The notes under the pieces: generated by a model
Databases searched by the model: none
The model's input: the letters and a program-made list of their open reading frames with translations, nothing else
Told to the model about the DNA's origin: nothing
Assembly (NCBI GenBank): GCA_905221615.1
Contig: CAJNDT010003435.1
Coordinates: forward strand, 395,437-459,436
Length of the DNA stretch: 64,000 nucleotides
Direction: 5' to 3'
Source: Symbiodinium sp. CCMP2592
Taxonomy: Eukaryota; Sar; Dinophyceae; Suessiales; Symbiodiniaceae
Translations under genes and position numbers: made by a program
Shown here: piece after piece, positions 15,862 to 53,596 of the stretch
How the letters are laid out: each line of letters opens with the position of its first letter
Numbering within the stretch: position 1 is the first letter of the stretch

Positions 15862-16317
15862 TGGTTCGGCAAGCGTCTCTTCCTTGCAATCTTCCGTAGC
15901 AGCTGCGCGACCGCATTTTTCACAGGCTGCTGCCTCTTGTACCATAGCAGACCCAGACCGTACCACACAGCTGGGCAAAAACGAGTTGAACCGTTCTGGC
16001 ACGCCACCTAAAGGCGAGCTGGGTGCGCCGAGCCACTATTGTAACTCTAGTCCATCTACACTTCACAGTTTTACTTTTCCAGGTTGCTCTGAGAGTTGTT
16101 CTAGTATGCCTTTCGGCGACGAAGTGCCCCACAGACCCCACACCACCTCCCAGACACCCCCCTCCTCACAGACCCGAGCACAATACCACCGCCACCTCGG
16201 TCACAAACAGCACGGCAGCGGCGAGCACGCCGACGCATCACCACCAGATCTCGCAGCAGGCGGGAATACAGAGCTTGGAGGCATGCTCTATCCACCTCTC
16301 CAACCCCTAGTTGTGGT

Positions 16318-19300
16318 TTGGGCTCCAGACCTAGGATCAACAACCAAAAGCCTTTATACGGCCCCACGCCGACTGCCCCAACCCCGGGCGGCTTACAGCC
16401 TGTTTCCACCAGGGCTTCCCTTAAGGGACGAGGCCCGCAGTTTCGCTCTTGCAGACGTTTCCACCGCCTTTTGGCCAAAGCCCCAGACATGAGAGTGAAG
16501 AGACACCCACCACAGAATCGATCCACCCCCAACCATTTGAGGCTTCGAATATCGGAGCCTGCCACCCCACCAATTGGCCATTTTGGCCCGCCGGCCTCTC
16601 CAACGGAAGGCTTCTCCACCACGGCCCCCCTCACAGCGGACACTCTTCCCCCCTCTCTTCCTTCTCCGCCCAACCCCACCCCCCCTTCACAGCCTCAGTC
16701 GAACAGTGGCCGCGATTCTTGGGCTGATGCCCACGACACTCAAAACAAGCAGCACACTCGAGCACACTGGTTCAAGACCCACTGCCGTAGCCCTCAAGAG
16801 CACGGCAGACAGAGGCACTCCACACAGTTGCGCTCCAAAGTGCGCCTGAAAGGGGGATTCTGGAACACCACGGGCCTCCTTGAAGCTGGCAAGCTTCACA
16901 CCCTGATCAAGATAATGCAGACGCATGGTCTTGACTGGTTGGCCCTCACAGAGACCCACGTGAAGCAACAGGATCGCTTTATGATCGATGGGTACACCGT
17001 CATACACAGTGCAGATGACAAACTGGATGCCAAGGGCAACCCGGTCCAAACCTTTACGGGAGTGTCCTTGATTACCTCCCCGCGGCTCACACCCTGCATT
17101 CTGGACATCGTTGCCACTGACGGTCGTTTCCTCTCTTTCAAGATCGACACAGCAGAGGCCCCTCTCACAGTTCAGGTGGTGTATGCTCCTCACAATCAAC
17201 GTGAGCAGTCGGTCCGCGATGCATTTTGGCAGTCACTGGGGGACGTCCTTCACAGACACCCTGCCAGTGAACCCCTCTTATTGGTGGGCGACTTCAACGC
17301 GCAACTGCTCGATGAGCTCTCAGCCAACCGCGGAAGTGTCGGACCCCACGCCCACTTTGGAGCGAACGTGGCCGATGAGACCTTAGCTTCACAGGCTGGC
17401 GAGGATGACTCCCTGTCCAACCACGCACAGCTGTTCGAGATGTCGGTCAGTCACGACTTGTGCTTCCCACAGACGTGGATGGCCAAAGACGAGAGACATC
17501 GGATGACACACCAGCGCCCGAATGGTGATCTGGTCCAGCTGGACCATGCCATCACCAAGTTCGCCTGGAAGAATATGGTCACTGATGTGCACACCCTCCC
17601 GAACGCTGCCCTCAACAGCAATCACTTTCTCACCAGAGTCACACTCTCCTTACGCACAGCCTGCCACAAGCGAGCCGCGCCTACCCCCAAGCTGACCAGA
17701 CGCCCTGACGCACAGTCCATTCTCTCCTTCAACACACACTTCACGGAAACCCTTCAGCATCAGCCAGCCTTCGAGGAGCCTGCCCCACACGAGACAGACG
17801 CGGAGGACGTCTCCCCCCAGCCTTCACAGTCGAGCACAGACCAGCAGAGGCTGGACCGGCAATGGAAATCGATCAAGGATTCCATCCTGCAGTCCATGGA
17901 GATGCACATCCCCACACTGGACAGCAAGCCCAAGCATCCTTGGATTAGCCAGCAGACGTGGGAGCTCATAGAGCAGCGCACCGCTGCTCGTCAGAGCCAG
18001 AACCTGGAAACGGAGCGCCACTTGCACAAGACCATCCGCTCACAGGCCCGCAGGGACAAGCAACAATGGCTCAAGGATCGTCTTCAGGAGAGCGAAGAGA
18101 CAATGGATGCTCGGGACAAGTGGCGCTGGATCAAGCGCATTCGCTCGGACTACAGGCCTCGCACGGTCACTCTGAATGACTCCAACGGCAAGCCCACCAG
18201 CTACAGCAAGCAGGCCGACACCTTCGCCAAACACTTGTCGGAAGTTCAGTGGGCCCCCCCACCGACTGACTACACAGGACCCACCCACAAACTGACTGAC
18301 GAAAGTCCAGTCAACATGGAACCCATCACGATGGACGAGCTCAACCACACCCTCAAAGGCATGGCCTCACATAAGGCACCAGGCCCGGACCAAATTCCGG
18401 CGGAGGCCCTACAATGGCTCACACCAGCCAATCGGCAACCGCTCTTGGACCTCTACAACGAAGCTTTACTCACAGGCCTGGTACCGGAAGAATGGTCAAC
18501 GGCAGTGGTTGCAGAGATTCACAAGCGTGGCACCATGGCGGACCCCAACAACTACCGCCCCATCGCCCTCCTCAGCACCTCTTACAAGCTCTTTGCCAGG
18601 CTCCTTCAGAAACGCCTGGAGCAGGCGATAGACCACAAGCTGCGACCCACACAGTATGGGTTCCGAGCCACCAGATCGACCTCACAGGCGATACACGTGG
18701 CAAGGAGGTTGCTGGAGCGAGCTGAACGTTGCGGTTCAACTTTGTACGTGCAGCTTCTTGACTGGAGCCAAGCATTTGACAAGGTCCACCCGCAAGCAGT
18801 TACGGTGGCACTAGAACGACATGGGGTGACGCCGGCGTTTGTCAATCTGAATGGCTCGATATACAACAACCCTTCCTTCACAGTCAAGGCGGCGGGGCAA
18901 CTGAGCCAACAGTCTCTCGCAAGCTCGGGCATTCGCCAAGGCTGCCCGCTTTCTCCTTACCTCTTCCTTGTGGTCCACAGTACATGGCCGATGTCGATGT
19001 GGAGCTGCAGCAGCATGGTCAAATGCTTCCGTGGCTTTTTAGCCAGAACCAACCATTCTACGACCTTGCCTACGCAGACGATATGGCCATTTTCACGGGT
19101 ACTGCGGAAAGGGGCCAGCAAATTCTGCACAAGATTCAGGAAGTTGCTGCTCACAGCAACCTCTCGCTGAATCTTAAAAAGTGCGAATTGCTTCGCCCAC
19201 AGCTGGCCGTCAACCACATACACTTCCTCACAGGAGAGCTAATGAAAGAGGTCACACAGGCCAAGTACCTCGGCGTTGTCAGCACTTCAACACCTTGCAC

Positions 19301-48939: not shown

Positions 48940-51900
48940 ATGGCTGTGGTGCCTTCGCTGGTGTTCGCCTTGATCAGCATTGCCTGGATGGCGTGCCTGG
49001 GAGAGGCTGCGGAACTAGATGTTTGGCGTAGTAAAGGGCTGGCACTAGAAGCAAGAACATCACGTTTTGCTTGGCTCTAAAGTGGGATGTTCTTCTTGAG
49101 CGTTGTGGGAGCTCGTGTCCTGAATCTTGCGTTCTGGCAAGTGTGTTTTGCATATTATTATTATTATTATTATTATTATTGTTATTGTTATTGTTATTAT
49201 TGTTATTATGATTATTATTATTAGAAACTCTGGCAGGTCACCTGGGAGATGTCTCGTTGCGGCTTCGAGATCGATACGTGTCTTTGGCTGAACACTGGCA
49301 ATGCCAGTTGGCAGCGTGCCAGTGGCCAGGCAACCGATGCTAGGATGCCCAGTACTACCCTTATTCCCTTTTTGTAGTCCTAGGTGCCTTATAAAGTTAC
49401 CCAATACCAAAAAGAGAGGCCTTTTTATTCTTAGGTTACTGGGTATCCTAGGATGGGTGGTTGGAGGCTGAAGGCAATACGTCCGACGGCCAACTCTTCA
49501 TCATCGAGAGCCCTATGTTGACTGCCGCCACCGAAGAGAAGGGTTTGGTCTTTTCCTACATGATGATTGGATCGAGATCAGTGTCCCTGGAGGTGGAACA
49601 CAAGACAGAGTTGTCTGGCTGGTCAACCTTGTTTGCGGAGAGTGGAGACACCGGCACGGCCTGGAAGGGTGCCTCCATCCGAGTGCCCGAAGGCACTGTC
49701 GGCCTCCGTCTCCTAGCCGGTGCTGGTGTTGGGTCTGTGGTCAAAGTGGATTGGATTTTGGCTGTGGAGACAGCGAATTGGACAGACCTTGGTTGCACCT
49801 TCGAGGTTGACTTCTGTGGGTGGTCCTCTGGTTTTGAGAATCGGTGGCGCATTCGGCGGGGACACACCGGAACAGCAGCCACTGGGCCGGGGGCCGCTTT
49901 CGATGGGTCCTGGTACGTTTACACGGAAGCTAATTGGGCTCGAAACGAGGCAGGGCATTGTTCGGTTTAATACACGGGAGCCAGGACAGCTTGGATCCTT
50001 TGGCCCAAGACTGTTCCAAACATGTTAACAAAAAGCACTGCGCCCCATCCGACTGCAGGCCTTTATCCTGACATCTCCGATGTTTGAGCGCAGCAATGTG
50101 ACGAGGCAGTTTGGCTTTGCCTATAACATGTACGGCAAAAACATGGGAAGCTTGCAGTTGGAGTCTTTGGGCCGCAGCCACTGGACAACGCTTTGGCTAC
50201 AAGCAGGTCCTCGAGACCCTCGCTGGGAAACGTACTACGTTGCCATTCCCCAGGATGCAGAGATGTTGCGGTTCGTGGGCATTACGGGCGATGGCATTGC
50301 AAGCGACATGGCTCTGGATGGCCTCGCTGTTGGTGTCGGCGCCCTGCCTCCGGGCCTGGACTTAGAGCACCTCGCCTGCGATTTTGCCTGGGACACCTGC
50401 AGATGGCTGAACACTGGCAATGCCAGTTGGCAGCGTGCCAGCGGCCAGGCCACCGATGCTAGGATGCCCAGAGTACCCTTATTCCCTTTTTGTAGTCCTA
50501 GGTGCCTTATAAAGTTACCCAATACCAAAAAGAGAGGCCTTTTTATTCTTAGGTTACTGGGTATCCTAGGATGGGTGGTTGGAGGCTGAAGGCAATACGT
50601 CCGACGGCCAACTCTTCATCATCGAGAGCCCTATGTTGACTGCCGCCACCGCAGAGAAGGGTTTGGTCTTTTCCTACATGATGATTGGATCGAGCTCAGT
50701 GTCCCTGGAGGTGGAACACAAGACAGAGCTGTCTGGCTGGTCAACCTTGTTTGCGGAGAGTGGAGACACCGGCACGGCCTGGAAGGGTGCCTCCATCCGA
50801 GTGCCCGAAGGCACTGTCGGCCTCCGTCTCCTAGCCGGTGCTGGTGTTGGGTCTGTGGTCAAAGTGGATTGGATTTTGGCTGTGGAGACAGCGAATTGGA
50901 CAGACCTTGGTTGCACCTTCGAGGTTGACTTCTGTGGGTGGTCCTCTGGTTTTGAGAATCAGAAGGGACACTGGAGCCTCAGGCGGGGCCAAACCGGCAC
51001 AAGTTACACTGGGCCAGAACGTGCTTTCGAGGGGGACCGGTACATTTTCACGGAAGCTTCTGCAGCTTTCAACGAGGCAGGGCTTTGCCGGGCTTGGCTC
51101 GCTTTCGACTTTAGTGATATGTGCGCCTGCACACAAGCTACACAAGCATGGCGGGGCCTAAAGCGGAGGGGTATATAAAGTGTTGATAGGTTGTCTTGCT
51201 CTGCGACGACGGTAGGGGAATGCGAAGTCCACGGGACCCACTGGACGCCGCACCCTTTCGGAGTCCAGAAATGTGGGAAAACCGTAAGGTAGAATCCCAC
51301 TTTCATTGGCCTCTGCTGCACCACCTGGCATAGCGACGGCCGGTCTGCCCATGCGCAGGACTGTCATTCCTTTTGGAACGCACGCGGTGCTATTCCGTTT
51401 CTCCGGGTTGAGGGAGGTGTTTCGCGAGCATTCTCACCTACACCTTCGCTGTATACAGCTATATTACCCCAGTTTTCACCAGGCAGGTTCACACACATTC
51501 CCTCCACACCCGCACACTGAAACACACAGACACGCACTGACACACACACACACAGACACAGACACACAGACATACAGACACACAGACACACAGACACACA
51601 GACACACAGACACACAGACACACAGACACACAGACACACAGACACACAGACACACAGACACACAGACACACAGACACACAGACACACAGACACACAGACA
51701 CACAGACACACAGACACACAGACACACAGACACACAGACACACAGACACACAGACACACAGACACACAGACACACAGACACACAGACACACAGACACACA
51801 GACACACAGACACACAGACACACAGACACACAGACACACAGACACACAGACACACAGACACACAGACACACAGACACACAGACACACAGACACACAGACA

Positions 51901-53596
51901 CACAGACACACAGACACACAGACACACAGACACAGACACACAGACACACACACAGACGCACAGACGCACAGACGCACAGACGCACAGACGCACAGATGCA
52001 CAGACGCACAGACGCACAGACGCACAGACAGACACAGACAGACACAGACAGACACAGACAGACACAGACACACAGACACACAGACACACAGACACACAGA
52101 CACACAGACACACAGACACACAGACAGATAGACAGACAGACAGACAGACAGACACAGACACACGCAGAGACACACACACACACAGACAGACACAGACACA
52201 CAGAGACACACACACACACACAGAGACACAGACACACACACACACAGAGACAGGGAGACAGAGACAGACACAGCACGCGGTAGTGTTGATCTGCATTCTG
52301 AAAACCTCAAGACCAGTCGAGAGCCAGGACAGCTTGGAACCTGGTTCCGAATTTGTTCAAAAGCAACCTTGCGCCGAACCGACTGCAGGCCTTTATCCTG
52401 ACATCTCCGATGTTTGAGCGCAGCAACGTGACGAGGCAGTTTGGCTTTGCCTATAACATGTACGGCGAAAACATGGGAAGCTTGCGGTTGGAGTCTTTGG
52501 GCCGCAGCCACTGGACAACGCTTTGGCTACAAGCAGGTCCTCAAGCACCGCGCTGGAAGACCTACTACGTTGCCATTCCCCAGGATGCAGAGATGCTGCG
52601 GTTCGTGGGCATCACGGGCACTGAGTTCAGAAGCGACATGGCTTTGGACGGCCTCGATGTTGGTGTTGGCATACCTGTTCTGGGCCTTGAACACCTCGCC
52701 TGCGATTTTGCTTGGGACACCTGCAGATGGTTGAACACTGGCAATGCCAGTTGGCAGCGTGCCAGTGGCCGGGCCACCGATGGGTGGTTGGAGGCTGAAG
52801 GCAATACGTCCGACGGCCAACTCTTCATCATCGAGAGCCCTATGTTGACTGCCGCCACCGCAGAGAAGGGTTTGGTCTTTTCCTACATGATAACTGGATC
52901 GAGCTCAGTGTCCTTCGAGGTGGAACACAAGACAGAGTTGTCTGGCTGGTCAACCTTGTTTGCGGAGAGTGGAGACACCGGCACGGCTTGGAAGGGTGCC
53001 TCCATCCGGGTGCCCGAAGGCACTGTTGGCGTCCGGGTCCTGGCCAGCCTTTCTGCAGGGGAGAAAGCGACAGTTGGTGTGATCTCCGTTGCAGATGTTA
53101 GCTCAAGCTTCGCAAATCTGAGCTGCAGCTTCGAAGCCGATCATTGCGGGTGGTTCGCGGAATCTGGTGTCTGGTCGCGGTTCGCTGGGCCACAATCGTC
53201 CTTCACGGGCCCCGGCGCAGCCTTCCGAAGCGACTTTTACATTGCCACCGCGGAACACATGGATGCCATTCTGACTCCAGAGGCCGGGCCTGCAAGGCGG
53301 TGTGCAACTCGCTTTTCGTCGGTAGCTTTCTGCTGTGCCGAAGCTTCCAAAAGATGGAAAGAGCTTGCAGTAGTTGTCACGTGTTCGCCCTCGCGCCCTC
53401 GCAGGCCGTGCTGATGAGTCCACTGTTCCCTGCGGCTGCCAGCAAGTTCTTTTTGGAGTTTTCTTATCACATGACGGGCGCGTCGATAGACCGCCTGGAG
53501 CTGCAGTACCTGCGTCGAGGCCGTTGGTCACGGCGCTGGGCGCGCTGGCGTTCTCAGGGCAATGCCTGGCTGCAAGGCAATCATAGGGACCCTTAG
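48940..53596 (+). CDS. Six-MAM-domain secreted or surface protein
   Basis: Exons 48940-49020, 49237-49335, 49452-49949, 50059-50454, 50570-51076, 52389-53264 and 53405 onward; all junctions are phase 0. Residues 1-22 are a typical signal peptide (hydrophobic, ending CLGEA). MAM domains begin at Cys residues near 35, 175, 333, 473, 632 and 773 ([60 protein letters not shown]); the spacing of 140 and 158-159 shows a two-domain module of about 299 residues repeated three times. MAM domains are extracellular adhesion modules. Introns: GT-AG, GA-AG, GC-AG, GA-AG, GC-AG, GC-AG. The two GA-AG introns are mobile-element copies. The third module may be cut short: exon 7 reaches a TAG at 53594-53596 after 63 codons, well before its MAM domain is complete, so either more exons follow or it is truncated. 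No membrane anchor was found. Confidence 0.8.
49150..49225. repeat. ATT triplet tract
   Basis: (ATT)n with GTT interruptions, inside the first intron (49021-49236) of the MAM gene, close to its acceptor. Confidence 0.9.
49336..49451 (+). mobile_element. Introner copy 1 (family L), intron 2 of the MAM gene
   Basis: GATG, then CTAGGATGCCCAGTA, then about 80 bases, then TACTGGGTATCCTAG, then GATG again. The arms are a 15-bp inverted repeat (one mismatch), and GATG is a direct repeat. Removing 49336-49451 (116 nt, starts GA, ends AG) restores ACC GAT GGG TGG, the exact sequence present without any insert at 52779-52790 in the third module. The host exon is out of frame if the element stays. Confidence 0.85.
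50455..50569 (+). mobile_element. Introner copy 2 (family L), intron 4 of the MAM gene
   Basis: 115 nt, the same element at the homologous place in the second module, differing by a small change near position 15 (AGAGTACC against AGTACTACC). GATG at 50455-50458 and 50570-50573. Left in place, it leads to a stop just after the element (50587-50589). Confidence 0.85.
51535..52280. repeat. Very long CACAGA/CA hexanucleotide array
   Basis: About 740 bases of (ACACAG)n with CAGACG and CAGA variants in blocks. It lies in the 1312-nt intron 5 of the MAM gene; the homologous introns of the other two modules are 109 and 140 nt. All ORFs of 266-340 codons here are artefacts. Confidence 0.95.

Follow-up and report, generated by a model that had tools for sequence, protein, structure and literature searches.

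Probable conversion of a MITE insertion into a GA-AG intron within a MAM-module gene of Symbiodinium sp. CCMP2592

Within a 64,000-nt stretch of the Symbiodinium sp. CCMP2592 genome (hereafter the window), two MAM modules of one gene are each interrupted by a copy of the same short inverted-repeat element at a position where a third module of the run has the uninterrupted sequence. The reading favoured here, to which a probability of about 0.92 is assigned, is that insertion of a MITE made a spliceable intron whose donor came from the target duplication, and that the module was then duplicated with the intron inside it. The module run would in that case constitute a clean natural experiment, with the occupied and the vacant version of a single intron site side by side, and would allow the splicing of a GA-AG intron to be compared with uninterrupted neighbouring sequence. 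The same element occurs in a second gene with a different putative donor (GT vs GA), pointing to a route by which a very abundant MITE may seed introns on hitting exons.

The features discussed are collected in Table 1; the gene is unannotated, and the module coordinates given there are the limits of open frames, the junction being the sole exon limit that was placed. A sequence-only reading of the window had described two element copies of 116 and 115 nt (copies A and B), and both are correct as it placed them, with the GATG direct repeat that it had also reported present on each side of each copy (right-hand GATG at 49452-49455 for copy A and 50570-50573 for copy B). The 15-bp inverted ends that it described are likewise present in both copies, as imperfect rather than exact repeats, the two arms agreeing with each other at 14/15 positions in copy A and at 12/15 in copy B. 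Three of the four arms match CTAGGATRCCCAGTA exactly, and the left arm of copy B carries two mismatches. Arm matches with at most three mismatches in the window alone (4, three of them perfect) are not above chance, with a shuffle mean of 2.86 and at least 4 matches in 35 of 100 shuffles. When the window was scanned for further inverted repeats flanked by 4-bp duplications, 11 rows came out, several of them nested and two being copies A and B themselves; six shifted controls gave between 2 and 8 rows. When folded as RNA, copy A has its ends paired at -35.8 kcal/mol (z -3.4), and none of 200 shuffles was equally stable.

Table 1. Features of the interrupted MAM modules, in window positions, and of the second genic locus.
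Feature	Position	Strand	Remarks
Predicted exon sequence upstream of copy A, start of module 1 MAM	49231..49335	+	Reads ...Q A T; open frame, join, Pfam MAM across junction
Copy A including one GATG	49336-49451	+	116 nt; putative intron
Left GATG duplication, copy A	49336..49339	+	GA = putative 5' splice site
Copy A element proper	49340..49451	+	112 nt; arms 49340-49354 and 49437-49451; CCTAG end = putative 3' splice site
Open frame downstream of copy A	49452..49970	+	Begins with right GATG; open frame, join, Pfam
Open frame upstream of copy B: C-terminal part of previous MAM and start of interrupted MAM (module 2)	50029..50454	+	Open frame, join, Pfam
Copy B including one GATG	50455-50569	+	115 nt; putative intron
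Left GATG duplication, copy B	50455..50458	+	Putative GA donor
Copy B element proper	50459..50569	+	111 nt; left arm altered
Open frame downstream of copy B	50570..51178	+	Begins with right GATG; open frame, join, Pfam
Module 3 open frame without element	52302..53411	+	Empty-site GATG at 52779-52782; sequence, join, Pfam
L032 locus	C10:146230-146841		Element at 251-362, GTGA on both sides

The element belongs to a large family. The strain's own 1.098-Gb genome contains 13,088 exact matches to the arm (6,514 forward and 6,574 reverse), a count of arms and not of elements, and 0 matches to its backward-read control; a genome search for further arm copies, as proposed in the sequence-only reading, thus returned them in large numbers. 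Loci were sampled from the first 100 arm matches and, together with the window, L001, L004 and L005, yielded 43 element rows, with L002, L003 and L006-L008 left out as repeats of other loci and L046-L048 as having one recognised arm only; in one L042 row the arms are mispaired between partial copies in tandem. These rows are biased to young copies because they were picked by their arms. Duplications at other copies, whose absence had been named as evidence against a mobile intron, were found: a perfect 4-bp duplication flanks 24/43 rows, of which 23 are independent, the two window rows being one insertion, and the remaining 19 comprise 13 with none, 4 with 1 nt, one with 2 nt and one with 11 nt. 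The duplicated sequences vary among rows, and a GT, GC or GA start (as read) is seen in only 8 of the 23 independent perfect duplications.

The family consensus is 112 nt long, with inverted ends CTAGGAT...ATCCTAG, and returned 48 rows in a blastn search. The median row lies 1.8% away from it in substitutions and the farthest 12.5%, with copies A and B at 1.8% and 0.9%, respectively. The element is short, lacks coding capacity and is bounded by terminal inverted repeats and by target duplications of fixed length (perfect in 24 rows, not so in 19), as is characteristic of a TIR DNA transposon or MITE, and the many near-identical copies typical of introners are likewise found, as judged from the exact arms and from the 29/43 rows, selected by arm, that lie within 2.7% of the consensus. 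Some family members depart from the common form: L042 236-479 holds two partial copies spaced at a 66-nt period and, after them, a complete one, L028 4919-5052 is flanked by an 11-nt direct repeat in place of 4 nt, and L014 4887-4959 and L018 4872-4944 are 73-nt shortened versions which keep both arms and have no direct repeat.

When one GATG is removed together with the element (GA...AG|G), modules 1 and 2 both read open across the junction, with ACC|GATGGG as the predicted spliced junction. The Pfam MAM domain (PF00629) then crosses the junction in module 1 (residues 10-116, E 3.4e-11) and in module 2 (best stretch 117-223; 1.1e-21 for the whole protein). The earlier claim that retention breaks the frame holds for each copy by a different path: copy A introduces in-frame stops and a broken frame, and copy B has no stop within the element in that frame but a frameshift leading to a stop shortly downstream. 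In the Pfam search, the frame retaining copy B shows only the stretch of the previous MAM. Five boundary placements give the same product for copy A; the GA...AG boundary was chosen because it is the only one of the five that ends in AG, which rules out the other four, and it begins with GA. This agrees with the suggestion that the target duplication itself would supply the GA donor.

Homologues bear on the same point. With the two joined modules as query and the best 8000 candidates by shared words scored, 12 proteins were listed (P0002-P0013), all of them predicted proteins and not cDNA. Six of the 12 (P0003, P0004, P0005, P0007, P0008 and P0009 (more divergent)) match through the site with no insertion, in a substitution-only pattern, and P0003 carries an identical 11-residue stretch over the site; P0002, P0006 and P0010-P0013 did not match the pattern and were counted neither way. 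One of the listed homologues, only 33% identical, is named as from S. necroappetens; the homologues, the genome size and a G+C of 0.48-0.53 all fit a Symbiodinium-like dinoflagellate. The proposal that excision from GA to AG restores the protein is supported by a MAM domain spanning the junction in both modules and by the six homologues.

The third module provides the empty state, as had been claimed: ACCGATGGGTGG, with a single GATG, lies at 52776-52787, three bases before the 52779-52790 originally given. Modules 1 and 2 share 98.7% identity across 558 bp that include the element, and on this basis copies A and B most plausibly go back to a single insertion, duplicated later along with the module; independent insertions in the two modules are ruled out by the same identity. 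Downstream of the site, module 3 shares about 95% identity with modules 1 and 2; upstream of it, modules 2 and 3 are 89% identical. Over 318 nt around the junction, dS and dN are 0.128 and 0.025 between modules 2 and 3 and 0.114 and 0.034 between modules 1 and 3; modules 1 and 2 differ by 3 synonymous and 2 non-synonymous changes, too few to weigh. These sequences are most simply explained if the element arrived in the common ancestor of modules 1 and 2 once that ancestor had separated from module 3. The opposite history, in which an ancestral intron was precisely lost from module 3, for example via a reverse-transcribed message, would account for the joining of module 3 exactly at the predicted splice boundary, as expected of RNA-mediated loss. 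It is nonetheless considered highly improbable, since the flanking GATG fits the 4-bp target duplication seen in 24/43 rows of the family, copies lie 1-2% from the consensus whereas dS between modules 2 and 3 is 0.128, and the six homologues have no insertion at the site.

A second genic case, independent of the MAM site, is supported at L032, where sequence comparison suggests the same precise restoration. Here one GTGA and the element together make up 116 nt bounded by GT and AG; their removal gives the predicted spliced junction TTGA|GTGAGATG, and retention would lead to a TAG stop within two codons. The joined fragment has 15 homologous proteins (P0014-P0028), of which 14 align across the junction, which follows residue 66, and are ungapped there. 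P0014-P0021 and P0023 extend well past the junction, with gaps elsewhere in P0017, P0020 and P0023, P0024-P0028 continue only about five residues beyond it, and P0022 ends at residue 65. No Pfam match was obtained for the homologue P0016.

The family as a whole has the look of a general MITE because open frames are not over-represented at the sampled copies. After joining of the flanks, an open frame of at least 100 nt on each side was present in 11/43 rows, compared with 28% of random points in 20 of the loci, and the corresponding counts at 80, 120, 150 and 180 nt were 17, 8, 4 and 2 of 43 rows, compared with 42%, 20%, 12% and 8% of random points; no open-frame excess at the sampled insertion points was found in this comparison of the 43 rows with random points in the 20 loci. 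A coding location together with protein-restoring borders, the introner hallmark, was found for two insertions, those of the MAM modules and of L032, and as far as sequence can establish it, intron status is established for these two only. The joined open frames of L032, L017, L023, L035, L038 and L001 had no Pfam match at E 0.1; this does not clear the latter five, because L032 was missed too and yet proved coding through its homologues.

The lack of an open-frame excess among sampled copies would also be compatible with an ordinary MITE that is retained in RNA, modules 1 and 2 then being inactivated and decaying, and splicing is beyond proof by sequence alone. Such an account is judged improbable, since exact removal restores both frame and domain in both modules and the independent gene at L032 shows the same precise restoration. 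What had been presented as direct within-gene evidence for a mobile intron is accordingly sustained as an introner reading by the domain, the homologues, the family and the second gene; copies A and B would amount to one event, and their splicing is deduced rather than observed.

Under the favoured reading of a MITE turned intron, a non-autonomous DNA transposon (a 112-nt MITE making 4-bp target duplications), probably moved by a transposase supplied in trans, would have entered an exon of one MAM module. The duplicated GATG would then have provided the donor GA of the new intron and the CCTAG end of the element itself the acceptor, with the initial G of the second GATG completing the AG|G context. 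Predicted splicing would take out exactly one target copy and the element, leaving the protein unchanged, and the module would have duplicated later, carrying the intron along. At L032, the donor GT would come from the GTGA duplication, the first G of which would also follow the acceptor AG. CTAG is its own reverse complement, and the consensus therefore ends in AG in either orientation, use of the reverse being hypothetical.

Such borders have precedents. In work on URA3 mutants of an algal symbiont, a GA-AG(G) junction was reported to be used in vivo in the wild type, and it was proposed that AG is recognised together with a following G (PMC5818653). One table column of PMC7789003 gives 73.95% of introns as having GC or GA donors; the column is assigned here to S. 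microadriaticum via the mean intron length of 505 bp given in PMC11453091. A duplicated target starting with G would supply the donor G as well as the G that follows AG, so that insertion at any GA, GC or GT target might make this element spliceable at once; it is tentatively suggested, as a rather unlikely possibility, that target capture by MITEs, rather than relaxed splicing alone, may explain the frequent GC and GA donors in Symbiodinium introns.

The intron-making mechanism is already known, having been published for Symbiodinium microadriaticum, whose family 1 introners were described by Gozashti et al. 2022 (PMC9860276). As described there, family 1 resembles the present element in its 4-bp target duplications, terminal inverted repeats, element-borne 3' splice site and duplication-derived 5' splice site, and its example LSRX01000224.1:86725-86839 is 115 nt long, close to the introns of 116 and 115 nt proposed here. 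Compared by description and not by sequence, the two are probably the same family; the exact string CTAGGATGCCCAGTA was not found in the literature text searched, the family 1 sequence being published as a figure and a record. The same source gives introners as enriched in genes in 161/175 genomes, a common but not universal pattern. Roy et al. 2023 (Curr Biol), as cited in the review PMC11453091, reported that introner elements have recently added introns to dinoflagellate genomes, and the likeness to the present case, to the extent that the review conveys it, lies in dinoflagellate intron gain. The introners of Amoebophrya (Farhat et al. 2021, PMC7789003) are alike in carrying 8-20 nt inverted repeats and 3-5 nt direct repeats at intron ends; their borders are described as highly variable, whereas those proposed here are GA-AG and GT-AG.

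Two further repeats were observed in the window. A long CAGACA-type microsatellite, probably intronic, occupies about 51500-52280, between modules 2 and 3. An open frame of 1021 aa at 16105-19170 (+) has reverse transcriptase and endonuclease/exonuclease domains and resembles a LINE-type retrotransposon.
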